In this document: in pieces, positions 1,555 to 10,038 of the stretch | Position numbering within the stretch: position 1 is the first letter of the stretch | Layout: each line of letters opens with the position of its first letter | NCBI GenBank assembly: GCA_003660555.1 | Contig: QMUK01000034.1 | Span: 1 to 11,376, forward strand | Length of the DNA: 11,376 bases | DNA from: Thermococci archaeon | GTDB taxonomy: Archaea; Hadarchaeota; B88-G9 | Direction: 5' to 3' | Notes under the pieces: generated by a model | Told to the model about the DNA's origin: nothing | What the model saw: the letters and a program-made list of their open reading frames with translations, nothing else | The model's database searches: none | Program-made: the position numbers and the translations under genes

Positions 1555-4500
1555 TCAATCGAATTTTAGAGTTCTCTGTCTTCTCTTCTTACCTATTTGC
1601 TTACCTTCTCCTCCATGTGTGAATCCTGGAGGAGGTTGGTTGTCTATTGAATTCTCAAGTACTAGAACTGTTATTTCTGATTCTACTCTTCCTCCAGAGT
1701 AATACGCATAAACAGAGCCGGTATAGATCCCAGATGGGATATCACTGGGGGCGAAAACGTTCATTATCATCCTGGAGCTCTCCATCGGGAGGAGAGAAAT
1801 TGTCCTTATTGGTCCTCTCTCGTCAGATAACAAGACTCCAGTCCCGGATGAAATTGAGCAATGGAGGTAGCTCCCATTGAATTCTGGTTTTTCGAATCCA
1901 ACTTCCACTTCTTCCCTTACGTTACCGCAGTTCATTACTTCCACCTGGATAGGGAGAGTATATCCCTTCGTAATAGAGAAGGAATTCTGTAGAGATATCG
2001 TCACACCGTGTGTCTCCATCACCTCCGTCTCTAAGGACGTGGTGTCAGAACACGTTTTATTTCCAATGAGGATTGTGTCTGGGGGTAGCTCAGTCACCTC
2101 TGCCTTCGCCACCATGGAGAGAATTGCCCTAGATGGAGGAGTGTATCTAGGAGGTTTTACTCTCACCCTTATCTCCTTTGAGTCCATTGGACCTAGGAAG
2201 AAATCAGGAACTCCATTAGCATTCCAATCTCCCAATTTGATCCACTTATCCCACCATTTCCAATCAGATCTCATGGACGAGAGTTCCTTTATCTTATCAT
2301 ACGTCTGGAATTCCGGAGCAAGGGAGTCATAGACTTTGAAGAGACCATAAGACAGTTTCTCTGCATCCATACCCATATGACCTCCGTGGACTGGGTAAGC
2401 GAAGACAACTCCTCTCTCCTTGCAGAACTCATCTAGTATTTCCAAAAACTCCCTCTGCTCCTCCTTGCTGAGCTCTTGGCTGAAGACTCCCAGGGGTGTT
2501 TCCTTAGTAGCTGCCCAGTCTATGAAGACTATTATTGGAATTCCACCTAGCTTAGACCTTACAGCAGATATCACAGTGTTCCATTTATGCTCGTTTAGTT
2601 TCATCTCCCTCACTTCTTTCGAAGAAGGAGTGAGCGTAACGAAGTCCAGGTCCGGAGGAGGATACGGGTAGTAGATGAAAGGCGTCCAAGTGCCAACGTA
2701 TACGTACTTACCCCTGTTTAAGCCATATTCGTGTATCTCATCAACTATTTTCGCGGCCGCATTATACGATTCCTTCACTGCAATGTGATCGAAGCTCCAA
2801 GTCATTTGATACATTAGCAAAGCTTGTCTGAACAACATGTCTATCCAAATGGCATCCACTCCACAATCTATCTGCTTGTAAGCCCAACTGAGGAGCAACT
2901 CTTGGAACTCTTCGTTCGTAATGTCAGGGAAGTATGCGCTAACTTCCTGAGGATCGTAATTCGTGCAATCGAAGTCTTCAGGTAGCCAGTACTGTTCCTT
3001 GGCCCACCAACATTGAAATTCCTCCTTCGAGATTGGGATTCCCCACTTCCCTGGATCCAAGGCCATTTCCCAAGTATCTGGATATTCGTAAACTTCCCAT
3101 GTAATCGGATTCCAGACGACCTTTCTAGTTATTCTCTGGGCAGGAATTGCTCCACAGAAGACTACGTCTGGGATCTCAGATTTTATCTTGGACAATGCTT
3201 CCCTGAGGTGTTCGTAACTATATCCAGCCATCTCACACCTCTGGTCATCTGGAGGCGGTAGATCTTCGCACCTCTCAGGCATTGGGCTCCATCTCCACCA
3301 TCCTCTGAGTATGAAGTCGGTGTCCGTCTCTTTCAGTATTTGAATGACGTCGTCTACTGTTCTATTCAAATGGATATGCATTCTGTCAACGACTCTCTCG
3401 TAGAGAACAGCAACTCTTAGATCAGGTAGAACTCTCGGTCTGCTCGGCTCTGCCTCGATCTCTAAAACCCAATTCGGTGGTTTATCTATGTAAAGATCTA
3501 CTAACTCCCCGGCATCGTCGCAGTTTAACAGCGAGATCACTACATTTGCTTCTTCTCCGGGATTGCAATCAGTCTCCGGTACGGCATAGCCCTTTCCATC
3601 CACTGATATTCCAACGCAACACTTGGCAGTGGTCTTGTATCTCGTGAATTCTCCTATGCCATGGGCCTCTACTTCCATTGTCCTGTTCCCCAGCTTTATC
3701 TCTCCTTTCCACCTGATGAAGGCTCTTCCCCAAGTCCTCACTCCCTTCGGATCCCACCATACATTTCTCCCCTTACCCCAAACTTGTGGCCAGAACATGT
3801 ACGCTCTTCCGTAGAGATCGAGCTCTCCTCCCTCAAACTTCCCCTTTACGTGATAGCTTCTCGGTTGGATTGATCCATCGTCTGTGAACTCGTAATCGTC
3901 AAATCTAAATGACTGACCAGTCTTGAGGAAATTTATTCTCCCCTGATGCTGAAATTTAACTGGAGGTTCCAGTGGGGAGGGATTGTCCGAATGACACATC
4001 CTGAGATGGAATTCGTCGTTAAATATGAACAAACACGTGAAGCTCAGAGGAGCTCCACTAGGAGGTGGTTCGTAATACGATCTGTGATATGCTCTATCGA
4101 AGAGGAAGTGGCCTCTGAAGTGATATGTTCCGTCTCTGGTTACTAGTGTCGCATTGAAGACGCCTGTGTCGAAGAAACCTCCCCACACATCGAAGTCTGG
4201 CCTAGACCAATACGCCCCGTGAATCAGATAAGGGCCTTCTGGCTTCCCCATCCAGTAGGGTATGCCCTTCGCATATCCAATTACATCCAAAGTGATGTTC
4301 TTTCTTTCATTTACTAGCCTGAATATCCACCTTCTCTTCTCTCCTCTCGCGTCGTAAGATATTGATCCTCTCTCCTCTCCGAGGGTATAAACTGTCACAT
4401 TGTACGGGAACAGCGTCCCATTGTCATAGTACATTGGAGAAACCGTTCTTATGTAATGCCATTTCCCATTAAACCATATTCTGTTCCAAGTCGCTCCCTT

Positions 4501-4809
4501 GATGGGGAGTATACCTTGGATTATGAGTTCTCTCCCGTCCCTACTCTCTCCCCTTCCGACGTAGATGAAGCACTGCAGACCCCACTGTGGATCTGGAGTC
4601 GTTTTGATCGTGTTGTTAACTAGCTGATGCACTACTCCGAAGGGAAGGAAGTCCCACACCGTGGGTATGTCTTCTATCCAACTGTTGCTTTCAGTCAAGG
4701 GGGGCCATAGGACTTGCGCTCCACCGGGAACACTAGGAATTGTAGACGCTAGGAAAAGCATGACTAGAAGGACCGAAACTTCGTCTTTTCCTCGCACGAC
4801 TTTCCCCAT
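1555..4809 (-). CDS. large secreted multidomain protein: lipocalin-like region, glycosidase-like TIM barrel, NEW3-type beta-sandwiches
   Basis: This 1084-residue product has a signal peptide (basic start, hydrophobic 11-25, likely cleavage near 30) and no C-terminal anchor, so it should be exported. Residues 75-393 are beta-rich and very high in Trp/Tyr, and loosely recall AttH/CrtC lipocalin-like proteins (weak). Residues about 400-455 look like the first half of a NEW3 Ig-like domain, and about 857-905 like its second half. Between them (about 463-845) lies a TIM-barrel-like region resembling uncharacterised glycoside hydrolases, with acidic strand ends at CGVDAIWIDM (D652, D657) and VFIDWAA (D764) and a histidine pair HGGHMGMD (808, 811). 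A Ca-loop-like DxNxNGxxD occurs at 861-869. A complete NEW3-like domain follows at 935-1050, then a basic tail. The 17 cysteines suggest disulfides. The ATG at 4809 has GGTGATC 4 nt upstream. I infer a polysaccharide- or glycan-acting enzyme; no family number can be given. Confidence 0.82.
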   Translation of the reverse strand: MGKVVRGKDEVSVLLVMLFLASTIPSVPGGAQVLWPPLTESNSWIEDIPTVWDFLPFGVVHQLVNNTIKTTPDPQWGLQCFIYVGRGESRDGRELIIQGILPIKGATWNRIWFNGKWHYIRTVSPMYYDNGTLFPYNVTVYTLGEERGSISYDARGEKRRWIFRLVNERKNITLDVIGYAKGIPYWMGKPEGPYLIHGAYWSRPDFDVWGGFFDTGVFNATLVTRDGTYHFRGHFLFDRAYHRSYYEPPPSGAPLSFTCLFIFNDEFHLRMCHSDNPSPLEPPVKFQHQGRINFLKTGQSFRFDDYEFTDDGSIQPRSYHVKGKFEGGELDLYGRAYMFWPQVWGKGRNVWWDPKGVRTWGRAFIRWKGEIKLGNRTMEVEAHGIGEFTRYKTTAKCCVGISVDGKGYAVPETDCNPGEEANVVISLLNCDDAGELVDLYIDKPPNWVLEIEAEPSRPRVLPDLRVAVLYERVVDRMHIHLNRTVDDVIQILKETDTDFILRGWWRWSPMPERCEDLPPPDDQRCEMAGYSYEHLREALSKIKSEIPDVVFCGAIPAQRITRKVVWNPITWEVYEYPDTWEMALDPGKWGIPISKEEFQCWWAKEQYWLPEDFDCTNYDPQEVSAYFPDITNEEFQELLLSWAYKQIDCGVDAIWIDMLFRQALLMYQMTWSFDHIAVKESYNAAAKIVDEIHEYGLNRGKYVYVGTWTPFIYYPYPPPDLDFVTLTPSSKEVREMKLNEHKWNTVISAVRSKLGGIPIIVFIDWAATKETPLGVFSQELSKEEQREFLEILDEFCKERGVVFAYPVHGGHMGMDAEKLSYGLFKVYDSLAPEFQTYDKIKELSSMRSDWKWWDKWIKLGDWNANGVPDFFLGPMDSKEIRVRVKPPRYTPPSRAILSMVAKAEVTELPPDTILIGNKTCSDTTSLETEVMETHGVTISLQNSFSITKGYTLPIQVEVMNCGNVREEVEVGFEKPEFNGSYLHCSISSGTGVLLSDERGPIRTISLLPMESSRMIMNVFAPSDIPSGIYTGSVYAYYSGGRVESEITVLVLENSIDNQPPPGFTHGGEGKQIGKKRRQRTLKFD

Positions 4810-6548: not shown

Positions 6549-6596
6549 GGCAACCACCAAGTTAATATATGGTGTTAAAAATGGGTGGTGCTCGAA
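6549..6596. promoter_or_regulatory. compact divergent promoter between UPF0200 and pdhA
   Basis: Only 48 bp separate the two chosen start codons. The A/T-rich core contains GTTAATATAT (6561-6570), a plausible TATA box for pdhA about 27-35 nt before its TTG. For the opposite gene TTTTTAAC (minus strand, 6575-6582) is a plausible TATA. Ribosome-site-like GGTGG (minus, 6554-6558) and GGTGGTG (plus, 6584-6590) flank the core. TATA-to-start distances suggest nearly leaderless messages, which sits uneasily with these SD-like motifs, so exact elements are uncertain. Confidence 0.4.
6584..6590 (+). promoter_or_regulatory. Shine-Dalgarno-like site deciding the pdhA start
   Basis: GGTGGTG lies 6 nt before TTG 6597 and overlaps the alternative GTG starts at 6585 and 6588. 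This favours the shorter protein. Confidence 0.5.
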
Positions 6597-8162
6597 TTGC
6601 CCAGGATAAGAGAGCACCCAATCTTGGACTTCAAGTGGTCCGAAAGGAAGAAAATAAAGTTTACATTCGATTCCGAAGAAATAATTGGATACGATGGAGA
6701 CACTATAGCTTCAGCTCTTTATGCATCCGGAAAGCGTGTCATAAGGAGGAGTTTCAAGTACCACAGGCCTAGAGGTCTATTCTGCGGTATAGGTCAGTGC
6801 TCTTCCTGTCTAGTGAAAGTAAACGGAATTCCGAACCAGAAGGCATGTGTTACTCCCATAGAAGAAGGCATGGTAGTTGAATCCCAAGGTTCCATTCCTT
6901 CTGCAGAGAGAGATCTCCTCTCTCTTTTGGATGCGTTGGAGTTAAAACACGGAATCCAGTATGAGAAATTCCTAGGGCCTAAGTTCCTAAGACCCCTTTA
7001 CTTCAAGTTGTTCAACTTCGTCCTAGGAAGTGGGAATGTAAAAGAGGAAGTTCCGAAAGTGAAGTTCTCTGAAGGATATTATCCAGAGAAGGAGGTGGAC
7101 GTTCTCGTCATAGGAGGTGGACCAGCTGGTATTTGCGCAGCCAAGGCTTCTGCTGAATGCGGAGCAAGAACTCTCTTGGTTGAAGAAAGAGATAGAATAG
7201 GGGGAGAGCTGCTGAAACAGACCCACAAGTTCTTTGGTTCTAGGAGATACTACAGTGGGATGAGAGGCTTCAGGATAGCAGATGTACTCTCTAAGGAATT
7301 AGAGAAAAGTGGGGCAGAGGTCATGGTGAACACTCTCGCAATAGGGTATCTAGATGGCAAAATAGGAGTATGCAGAGATGAAAGGGAGTTCTCCTTGGTG
7401 AAACCCAAATGCATCGTGGTCTCAACTGGAGCGACAGAGAGAACCCTGATGTTCGAGAACAACGACTTGCCTGGAGTAATGGGTGCAGGCGGGGTTCAGA
7501 CCCTAATGCACCTTTATGGTGTGAAACCTGGGGAGGAAGCTCTAATAGTTGGTTCAGGTAACGTGGGCTTGATTTTGGCATATCAGCTTCTTCAGGCTGG
7601 AGTTGAGGTGAAAGCCGTCATAGAGATTCTACCTAAAATAGGCGGATACTTCGTTCACGCCGCGAAGATAAGGAGAATGGGGGTAGAGATCCTAACTTCC
7701 CACACAATAAAGAGAGCTGTTGGGAGGAAAGAAGTGGAAGGGGCTGAGATAGTTAAAGTTGACGAGAATCTAAGGGAAATAGAAGGTTCAGAGAGGTTCA
7801 TAGAGTGCGATCTAATATGCTTAGCAGTTGGAATGAGCCCGAACATAGAGATATTGAGGCAGATGGGATGTGAAGTCGTCTACATACCAGAACTAGGAGG
7901 TTTCGTGGCCAAGCACGACGAGAACATGGAGACCTCTAGGGCTGGGGTCTTCGTAGCGGGAGATTCCTCGGGTATAGAGGAAGCAACTACTGCCATGATA
8001 GAGGGGGAAATCGCTGGGATTTCAGCGGCTCTCAAGTCAGGCAAAGGTAGAAAAGAGCACGAAGAAAGGAGAGAGAAGCTAAAGATGCTCCTAGAGGAGA
8101 TGAGGGACAATCCCTTTGGAGAGCGTGTGGTAATTGGTAAGAAGAAAATGTGGGGTGCTTGA
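6597..8162 (+). CDS. pdhA: dye-linked L-proline dehydrogenase-type complex, alpha subunit (2Fe-2S + FAD/NAD oxidoreductase)
   Basis: The 521-residue alpha subunit belongs to the family of archaeal dye-linked L-proline dehydrogenase PdhA, sarcosine oxidase alpha N-terminal half and HcnA/HcnB. From TTG 6597: an N-terminal Fer2_4 domain with four cysteine ligands C63-x4-C68-x2-C71-x12-C84, then an FAD Rossmann motif VIGGGPAG (about 172-179), an NAD(P)-type motif IVGSGNVG (about 317-324), and the C-terminal FAD motif VFVAGD (about 452-457). The start is TTG 6597 because GGTGGTG lies 6 nt upstream and the product then begins PRIREHPILDF as in relatives; GTG 6585 would add four residues. Its stop abuts pdhF. 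In Thermococcus this subunit carries FAD, and NADH dehydrogenase activity is reported for it. The substrate of the whole complex could be another secondary amine or amino acid. Confidence 0.85.
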   Translation: MPRIREHPILDFKWSERKKIKFTFDSEEIIGYDGDTIASALYASGKRVIRRSFKYHRPRGLFCGIGQCSSCLVKVNGIPNQKACVTPIEEGMVVESQGSIPSAERDLLSLLDALELKHGIQYEKFLGPKFLRPLYFKLFNFVLGSGNVKEEVPKVKFSEGYYPEKEVDVLVIGGGPAGICAAKASAECGARTLLVEERDRIGGELLKQTHKFFGSRRYYSGMRGFRIADVLSKELEKSGAEVMVNTLAIGYLDGKIGVCRDEREFSLVKPKCIVVSTGATERTLMFENNDLPGVMGAGGVQTLMHLYGVKPGEEALIVGSGNVGLILAYQLLQAGVEVKAVIEILPKIGGYFVHAAKIRRMGVEILTSHTIKRAVGRKEVEGAEIVKVDENLREIEGSERFIECDLICLAVGMSPNIEILRQMGCEVVYIPELGGFVAKHDENMETSRAGVFVAGDSSGIEEATTAMIEGEIAGISAALKSGKGRKEHEERREKLKMLLEEMRDNPFGERVVIGKKKMWGA

Positions 8163-8615
8163 ATGCACGAATGGGAATGCACTGGTTTTTTCACTCCAGA
8201 GATAGACCTAGATAAGTTAAAAAAGAAGGGGAAAATCCTTGTAATAGAATGCCCCCAGAGAATCCCTTGTGATGTTTGCAGAGAGGTTTGTCCTACTAAC
8301 GCAATAATAATGGAGAAAATAAGTGATGTCCCTACCCTAAATGAAGAGAAATGTGTTCTATGTCTTAAATGTGTGGAAAATTGTCCTGGATTAGCTATAT
8401 TCCTCTTAGGAGTGGAGGGAGAGAAAGGATACATGGTAGTGCCCTATGAGTTTCTTCCCATCCCAAAGGAAGGGGACGAAGTTAAGGTATTGGATAGAAA
8501 AGGTAAAGAGGTGGGGCGTGGAATTGTGAAAGAAGTGAGAATGGGAGATACTCCCCTAGTGAAAGTGGAGTTTTCCCCTGATATTTTAAAGGAGGCAAGG
8601 GGGTTCAAGACTTGA
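8163..8615 (+). CDS. pdhF: ferredoxin-type electron-transfer subunit of the proline dehydrogenase complex
   Basis: A 150-residue protein with two [4Fe-4S]-type motifs in its first half. The second is canonical: C64-x2-C67-x2-C70-x3-C74-P. The first is C30-x5-C36-x2-C39-x3-C43-P, so its leading cysteine is three residues farther off than usual, preceded by VIECPQRIP. The C-terminal half (about 95-150) is a small beta-rich domain without cysteines. It fits the gamma (PdhF) subunit of the Thermococcus heterotetrameric dehydrogenase, which relays electrons between the FAD subunits and an acceptor. The ATG follows the pdhA stop directly with no gap and the 3' end overlaps pdhX by 4 nt, so it is part of one operon. 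Family and position agree with PdhF; the exact number of bound clusters is inferred. Confidence 0.84.
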   Translation: MHEWECTGFFTPEIDLDKLKKKGKILVIECPQRIPCDVCREVCPTNAIIMEKISDVPTLNEEKCVLCLKCVENCPGLAIFLLGVEGEKGYMVVPYEFLPIPKEGDEVKVLDRKGKEVGRGIVKEVRMGDTPLVKVEFSPDILKEARGFKT

Positions 8616-8887
8616 GGTTCAAGAATAGGATTTTCGTCTGTCTGTGTGAAGACGTCACTCTTGAAGACGTTCTCAAAGCAATAGAAGATGGAAACGATGA
8701 CATAGAGAGTCTTAAGAGAGCTACCGGAGTTGGTACTGGAATTTGTCAAGGGAAGTACTGTCTGAACCACCTAGCTAGAATATTGGCCGAGAGAACTGGC
8801 AAGAGCTTAAATGAGGTCGGATTGCCAAAGGCTAGACCTCCAACTAAACCAGTTAAGCTAGGTGTATTCGCCAAATTGGAGGGTTGA
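8612..8887 (+). CDS. pdhX: BFD-like [2Fe-2S] subunit of the proline dehydrogenase complex
   Basis: A 91-residue protein with the bacterioferritin-associated-ferredoxin-like fold (Fer2_BFD): C10-x-C12 near the N-terminus and C45-x4-C50 after a helical stretch, the standard four ligands of a [2Fe-2S] cluster. The segment VGTGICQGKYC is typical of the family domain found in nitrite reductases and in HcnB/OoxA-type oxidoreductases. The last 20 residues are Pro/Lys-rich and may dock to a partner. It starts with TTG at 8612, overlapping the pdhF stop as TTGA, with a purine-rich AGGGGG about 8 nt upstream. It corresponds to the small delta (PdhX) subunit of the four-subunit complex. In many relatives this domain is fused to the C-terminus of the alpha subunit; here it is a separate gene, as in Thermococcus. 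Confidence 0.84.
   Translation: MRFKNRIFVCLCEDVTLEDVLKAIEDGNDDIESLKRATGVGTGICQGKYCLNHLARILAERTGKSLNEVGLPKARPPTKPVKLGVFAKLEG
8878..8883 (+). promoter_or_regulatory. Shine-Dalgarno site deciding the pdhB start
   Basis: GGAGGG sits 6 nt before TTG 8890, and directly abuts the other in-frame TTG at 8884. Spacing favours 8890 as start, giving a product two residues shorter. Confidence 0.6.
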
Positions 8888-8889
8888 GC

Positions 8890-10038
8890 TTGGAAAGGGA
8901 GGCAAACGTCCTCATAATAGGTGGAGGGGTCAGTGGGACTGGACTAGCTTATAATCTAGCTAAACTGGGGGTAGAGGGAATAGTACTCCTAGAGAGGAAT
9001 TACTTGGGGAGCGGCGCTTCCGGAAGGTGTGGAGGTGGAGCCAGACAACAATGGACGACTGAAGAAAACGTGAAGTTCATGAAGAAGAGCATAGAAATTC
9101 TAGAGAGATTGCCTCAAGAGTTGAAATTCAACATATTATTCAGGCAGAGTGGATATCTCTTCCTAGCAAGAGATGAAGAACAGTTGAACCTATTGAAGGA
9201 GAACGTGAGGCTTCACAGAAAGTTGGGCGTCGAGACTAGATTCCTAGATGCAGAAGAAGCTAGGGAGATAGTTCCTGTTCTCAACACAGAAGGTATTCTA
9301 GGAGCTACGTATAATCCGAAGGATGGAGTTTTGTTTCCATTCGCCCTAGTCTGGGGATATGCAAAGGCTGCTAAGAGATTGGGCGCAAAGATTTACCTAC
9401 ATACTGAAGCAAGAGGATTTAAAATAGAAAATGGGAGAATAAAATCAGTTTTCACAGACAAGGGAGAAATAAAAGTGAAGGAGTGGGTAGTAAACGCTGC
9501 AGGTGCCTATTCCAAGGAGTTGGCAAGAAAGGCTGGAGTTGAGCTTCCCAATAAGCCATATAGGCACGAGATAATGGTCACTGAGCCCCTGAAACTATTC
9601 ATAAAGCCAATGGTGGTGGACTTGAGCAATGGCCTCTACATGACCCAAACCTCTAGGGGAGAAGTCATAGGAGGAATAGGAGATCCAGAGGAGGAGAGCT
9701 CCTATAATTTAGAGTCTGGACACAAATTCCTCTATCTGTTTTCTAGGGCTGCTATAAGAGTAATTCCCATATTGAAGGAGATAAGACTAATGAGGCAGTG
9801 GGCCGGATTGTATGACACTACCCCAGATAAGAACCCCATATTGGGCCCTGTGGATGAAGTAGAGAATTTCTTGCAGATAAATGGGTATAGTGGTCACGGA
9901 CTGATGATGGCCCCATATGCCACTCAGTTGTTAGCTGAGCTAATAGCCTACGGGAAGCCTTCTGAATCAATAGAGAGATTCAGCATAAGGAGATTCAGGG
10001 AAGGAGAAATAAAGGCGGAGAAAGCTGTAATAGGGTGA
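8890..10038 (+). CDS. pdhB: FAD-dependent amino acid dehydrogenase, beta subunit (DAO family)
   Basis: The 382-residue catalytic subunit belongs to the DAO family (D-amino acid oxidase, glycine oxidase, sarcosine oxidase beta, PdhB). The N-terminal Rossmann motif is VLIIGGGVSGTG with a glutamate ending strand 2 (LLER). This is followed by the family's GSGASGRCGGGARQQW loop (about 40-55), a mid-protein VVNAAGAYSKELA FAD segment (about residue 202 on), and the C-terminal signature NPILGPVDE ... INGYSGHGLMMAP. In the known archaeal complex the beta subunit oxidises L-proline to pyrroline-5-carboxylate at FAD and passes electrons on. TTG 8890 is preferred over 8884 from the ribosome site. It is the last gene of the operon. 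The order A-F-X-B is that reported for Thermococcus profundus; substrate assignment rests on this and is not proved by residues seen here. Confidence 0.85.
   Translation: MEREANVLIIGGGVSGTGLAYNLAKLGVEGIVLLERNYLGSGASGRCGGGARQQWTTEENVKFMKKSIEILERLPQELKFNILFRQSGYLFLARDEEQLNLLKENVRLHRKLGVETRFLDAEEAREIVPVLNTEGILGATYNPKDGVLFPFALVWGYAKAAKRLGAKIYLHTEARGFKIENGRIKSVFTDKGEIKVKEWVVNAAGAYSKELARKAGVELPNKPYRHEIMVTEPLKLFIKPMVVDLSNGLYMTQTSRGEVIGGIGDPEEESSYNLESGHKFLYLFSRAAIRVIPILKEIRLMRQWAGLYDTTPDKNPILGPVDEVENFLQINGYSGHGLMMAPYATQLLAELIAYGKPSESIERFSIRRFREGEIKAEKAVIG

Follow-up and report, generated by a model that had tools for sequence, protein, structure and literature searches.

A putative GH31-like barrel-type domain nested in an Ig-like sandwich of an exported archaeal protein

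The locus and the encoded protein

The window, i.e. the whole stretch of 11,376 nucleotides analysed here, carries on its reverse strand an exported protein with a nested architecture. By sequence, nothing in Pfam, NCBIfam or PDB matches the protein even at permissive limits, and it was therefore studied through its own relatives. A PDB sequence search with the whole protein and with a profile of its N-terminal domain gave nothing usable. The features of the protein are as follows.

1555..4809 (-): exported protein with nested architecture, 1084 aa; open reading frame intact
4717..4809 (-): predicted signal peptide, residues 1-31; from sequence and hydropathy
3625..4734 (-): N-terminal all-beta domain, residues ~26-395; homologous to stand-alone proteins
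3445..3627 (-): Ig-like sandwich 1 (Ig1), first half, residues ~395-455, with Cys 397, 398, 415 and 430; positions 4-63 of the intact-copy profile, E 7.9e-12 per genome
2260..3429 (-): inserted domain, putatively GH31-like and of TIM-barrel type, residues ~461-850; from family relatives and conserved acidic residues
2005..2241 (-): sandwich 1, second half, residues ~857-935, with the D-rich loop GDWNANGVPD and Cys 920; profile positions 64-292 together with sandwich 2, and the cysteine pattern
1645..2004 (-): Ig-like sandwich 2 (Ig2), uninterrupted, residues ~936-1055; from alignment and profile
1558..1644 (-): C-terminal tail, residues ~1056-1084, IDNQPPPG...GKQIGKKRRQR; common to exported proteins of this genome

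The signal peptide coincides with a hydrophobic stretch at the N-terminus (residues ~9-31, Kyte-Doolittle peak). Elsewhere, the window contains matches to PF04013 and PF01877, which we take to be archaeal families. Four genes at 6585-10035 (+) encode an FAD/2Fe-2S oxidoreductase, a 4Fe-4S protein, a sarcosine-oxidase-A3/BFD protein and a DAO-type oxidoreductase, a set that resembles a split amino-acid dehydrogenase of the sarcosine/proline type.

The N-terminal domain is homologous to stand-alone proteins encoded on another contig of the same genome (C42) and in six other genomes. No match in Pfam or another library confirms its fold; its motifs suggest a lipocalin-like domain of the AttH/CrtC kind. 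In two genomes, G279 (L063/L064) and G362 (L041/L042), a gene of the barrel family directly adjoins a gene of this lipocalin-like family. Members of both families are present in four genomes (this one, G279, G310 and G362); with the barrel family in 10 and the lipocalin-like family in 7 of 394 genomes, chance alone would predict about 0.2. The window protein is thus a fusion of two families whose genes lie side by side in other genomes.

The inserted, putatively barrel-type domain and its relatives

Residues 461-850 belong to a family separate from the host, with relatives in the same genome on contigs C105, C126, C127 and C109. Nine more genomes among 393 relatives contain the family and a few more were added by a search of 29 genomes of the phylum; altogether, about a dozen archaeal genomes besides this one carry it. 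The named relative stems from a Thermoplasmata MAG (AUK221), likewise archaeal, and no relatives were found in the viral contigs and plasmids searched. Complete relatives are proteins of 409-512 residues with an N-terminal membrane or lipoprotein-like anchor. Other arrangements are an 873-residue tandem (G107) and an array fused to a GH13-like domain (C127), and in G107 and G174 the genes adjoining the barrel are alpha-amylase-like. About 20 relatives share the start and the end of the insert, being stand-alone, in tandem, or beside or fused to a GH13-like domain; none of these ~20 relatives, whether from this genome or from the dozen or so others, is nested. The barrel tree leaves the position of the inserted copy, and thus its donor, ambiguous.

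Barrel pseudogenes with several stop codons are present in two genomes: L057, L110 (G279:C9) and L105 (G395:C4). The barrel gene of Thermoplasmata AUK221 (L020:2987-4707) contains a frameshift that results in two overlapping reading frames.

The description of the barrel as glycosidase-like, made by the first-pass annotation, receives moderate support. A local match to the GH31 TIM-barrel model that includes the nucleophile motif was obtained for 13 of the 23 family members (best E 1.9e-5). Against PF01055 (curated cut-off 23.5 bits) the window copy reaches 16.3 bits, and in a genome search its paralog on C109 lies above the cut-off with 24.8 bits. In a PDB profile search, the region around D657 aligns weakly (E 0.3) with a GH31 alpha-glucosidase (PDB 3nsx), at its WNDM motif, whose aspartate acts there as the nucleophile. 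D657, within a W-x-D-M motif, is invariant in all 20 barrel members compared (20/20). The stretch FPDITNxEFxxLxLSWAxxQIDxGxDAIWIDML aligns with the nucleophile region of GH31 (PF01055; retaining alpha-glycosidases). The alignment leaves out the acid/base region, and the accompanying GH31 beta domains are missing. The match covers only ~55 of 328 model positions and thus falls short of a full-length GH31 barrel with its acid/base aspartate, a role for which D764 is a candidate. Because a profile-profile comparison (hhalign) with a complete archaeal GH31 domain gives a probability of just 1.7%, 'GH31-like' is as far as the label should go.

An amidohydrolase with a composite domain was also considered and rejected: the barrel alignment contains no HxH after strand 1 and there is no Pfam match.

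The local character of the GH31 likeness, which is weak outside the nucleophile motif, would also suit a barrel that is truly nested and yet not an active glycosidase, i.e. one that is catalytically dead, catalyses another reaction or acts as a binding or structural element. We regard this as unlikely, albeit deserving serious consideration, since the window copy retains every acidic residue that is conserved in the family (D629, D648, D652, D657, D722, E732, D764, D828 and E833) and relatives are located in or beside GH13-like glycosidase genes. A probable glycosidase is the reading that we prefer for the inserted domain.

The interrupted sandwich and its empty sites

For the host domain, a profile (HMM) was built from only the three uninterrupted copies elsewhere in the genome, with the window protein left out. 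This profile matches the window protein twice: residues 395-453 correspond to profile positions 4-63 and residues 848-1079 to positions 52-292, the true second half starting at about residue 857 and running with Ig2 to ~1079 (positions 64-292). Some 400 unrelated residues separate the two pieces. Scored apart, the first half covers positions 4-62 with 46.8 bits and the second half positions 64-292 with 149.1 bits, so that there is neither an overlap nor a gap of more than one position. When joined, the halves give a single match of 203.4 bits over positions 4-292. The best scores of shuffled controls were 3.9 bits (2000 shuffles of the whole protein) and 8.3 bits (5000 shuffles of the first half), and the barrel alone does not match the intact-copy profile.

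The proposal that a sandwich is split around the barrel is thus borne out: its complementary pieces join at 203.4 bits compared with 8.3 bits or less for shuffles. The limits assigned previously had to be shifted. The first half spans residues ~395-455 instead of 415-455, the insert ~461-850 instead of 463-845, the second half ~857-935 instead of 857/872-905, and the second copy ~936-1055 instead of 935-1050. That this second copy is complete and uninterrupted agrees with alignment and profile, and the Ig2 profile also detects Ig1 of an intact paralog (E 1.7e-5). The matching NC pair noted earlier holds as well, as neither C430 (Ig1) nor C961 (Ig2) varies among the CC-type copies.

AlphaFold predictions for the whole protein from its single sequence (pLDDT 34) and for the barrel with one relative only (pLDDT 47) were too poor to serve as models. 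A Foldseek search with the latter returned no match below 1e-3, and the glycosidases among its mixed weak matches were not counted as evidence. Both the barrel fold and the joining of the sandwich halves are proposed here by homology.

Six cysteines of the module (397, 398, 415, 430, 920 and 961) are invariant in the window protein and three CC-type copies. From the copy on contig C9 exactly four of them are missing (397, 398, 430 and 920), and 415 and 961 remain. In the window protein 397, 398 and 430 precede the barrel and 920 follows it. Because C9 has lost 920 jointly with the other three, Cys 920 belongs with the cysteines before the barrel. The joint loss of an even set of cysteines suggests disulfides that bridge the two halves.

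Alternatively, the flanking pieces could be separate small domains that merely resemble sandwich halves, as no structure places the two pieces packed together. This is nevertheless very improbable, as the pieces take complementary profile positions (4-62 and 64-292) and join into one match, and the loss of the cysteine behind the barrel goes along with the loss of cysteines in front of it.

The interrupted sandwich can also be compared with uninterrupted copies in the same genome. In a genome search with the window protein, paralogs on C16, C109 and C12 align with two stretches of it, residues ~397-458 and residues from ~853 on, which directly adjoin each other in these paralogs. The alignment shows the uninterrupted C16 sequence as '...PETDCHSPEEAIHEIYIQNCDNYQEIVEISLSKPPYWSIVIEDQSGNRIGDTNGNGLPNLTLDPGEQVILRFKIRPPKYTEPSR...', compared with 'PETDCNPGEEANVVISLLNCDDAGELVDLYIDKPPNWVLEIE (barrel) KLGDWNANGVPDFFLGPMDSKEIRVRVKPPRYTPPSR' in the window protein. 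A further intact copy is present on C9 and a partial one on C131. Among the four intact copies (C16, C109, C12 and C9), the loop at the insertion site, which is located between a W-x-x-x-I strand and the D-rich GDWNANGVPD loop, has 0 to ~7 residues. Since uninterrupted sandwiches persist on unrelated proteins of this genome, the insertion can be read directly. One Ig-like sandwich interrupted by a separate enzyme-like domain, as envisaged from the first inspection of the sequence, is thus supported by empty sites in the genome and by stand-alone relatives of the insert with matching ends, and we consider the insertion itself very probable.

A chimera of the metagenome assembly, in which a barrel gene was mistakenly joined into a sandwich gene, might be suspected in a genome of 150 contigs with several barrel paralogs and with no second strain carrying the same protein among the genomes searched, but it is very improbable, given that both joints are in frame within a loop of variable length in intact copies, the barrel ends coincide with the natural ends of the domain, G+C stays at 0.45-0.49 across the two joints without a step, and identity to the best outside relatives is only ~62%, so that no identical source is known.

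The host module and comparison with known systems

At least five exported proteins of this genome end in Ig1, Ig2 and the tail (D-x-x-PPP...K-x-I-x-K...basic): those on C16 (L026:3944-6982), C109 (L024:2-1270), C9 (L062:1190-3832) and C131 (L027), and the window protein (1558-2004). The C12 copy is cut by a contig end and was left out of this count. The N-terminal parts carried on the module are unrelated, namely an FG-GAP propeller, an Ig-containing protein, a peptidase C25 domain of the gingipain type (C9, E 2.3e-57) and the lipocalin-barrel protein of the window. The C9 peptidase also matches weakly a T9SS PorU sortase model. The N-terminal part of the C12 protein looks PHP-like to us, with PHP_C at E 0.018 only. 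In the C131 copy (L027:1-516) there is one in-frame TAG, for which a pseudogene, a sequencing error and recoding are alike possible.

Unrelated N-terminal parts on one module are typical of sorting or anchoring modules. Judged from the shared tail, the Ig-Ig-tail module probably serves anchoring or sorting, and it may be an archaeal module of this kind that has not been described. PGF-CTERM archaeosortase tails have a C-terminal membrane helix before the basic tail. Hydropathy revealed no hydrophobic stretch or membrane helix near the C-terminus of the window protein, so the tail is not of the archaeosortase kind, and a substrate of the PGF-CTERM type was rejected.

The assignment of the sandwiches to the NEW3 type holds only indirectly. 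The intact-copy profile detects all three domains of L059, where Pfam places PF10633 (E 5.3e-33). The PF10633 model itself scores above its cut-off neither for the joined halves nor for Ig2, the best intact paralog staying below threshold with E 0.29. Window and paralog sandwiches resemble NEW3/NPCBM_assoc (PF10633) in the order of motifs (PGE, N-x-G, PPxW, then PGE, PP), but they add conserved cysteines and the D-rich loop, and one copy is interrupted by an enzyme.

We propose that a GH31-like TIM-barrel family of probable glycosidases, normally carried on an N-terminal membrane anchor, was in the window protein fused to a lipocalin-like domain and placed in one loop of Ig1, the first of the two sandwiches. 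Ig1, Ig2, the PPP motif and the basic tail form a C-terminal module carried by several exported proteins that are otherwise unrelated; its most likely role is attachment or sorting to the cell surface. The two halves would still fold into one sandwich that holds both ends of the enzyme, with a disulfide between Cys 920 and a cysteine before the barrel as the probable lock. Taken as a whole, with function included, this account, in which an exported probable glycosidase is attached to the surface and nested in the domain that anchors it, has our moderate confidence. More tentative is the wider idea that an undescribed archaeal sorting module (CC-Ig1-Ig2-D-x-x-PPP-basic tail, with no membrane helix) captured a new GH31-related glycosidase family and combines catalysis and anchoring in one composite domain.

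Domain insertion is a known kind of architecture; within the literature searched, what is new is this pairing, together with the unusually clean evidence from empty sites. An ECOD survey reported insertions in about 20% of multidomain proteins, the inserts being smaller than their hosts in 77% of cases (median 115 vs 199 residues) and TIM barrels being noted as preferred hosts (PMC13114784). The window protein fits the general A1-B-A2 definition of that survey (PMC13114784), in which a host domain is interrupted in sequence by a complete domain: profile halves, empty sites and stand-alone relatives of the insert are all present. For the assembly of the host halves into a single three-dimensional fold, the joint cysteine loss gives indirect support only. 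It differs in that ~390 residues lie inside a host of ~140 and that the barrel, more often the host, is the insert. The usual size relation is thus reversed, with a large barrel within a small sandwich. With the insert, an unnamed glycosidase-like archaeal family comes into view, and with the host, what may be a surface module that is as yet uncharacterised.

A likeness in layout is found in metal-dependent hydrolases. In type-I dihydroorotase, residues 1-55 plus 366-422 form a composite beta domain around a TIM barrel (PMC3880350), so that here, too, N- and C-terminal segments make one small domain around a barrel. Barrel and host belong to other families, however, and the composite domain of dihydroorotase is a fixed feature of the enzyme, whereas in the present case the host still occurs uninterrupted and the insert still occurs on its own. 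In most cases a domain insertion comes to light through structures, when the event lies far in the past. In this genome the empty host, the free insert and the nested product coexist, which makes domain boundaries and the tolerance of the host for an insert directly testable.
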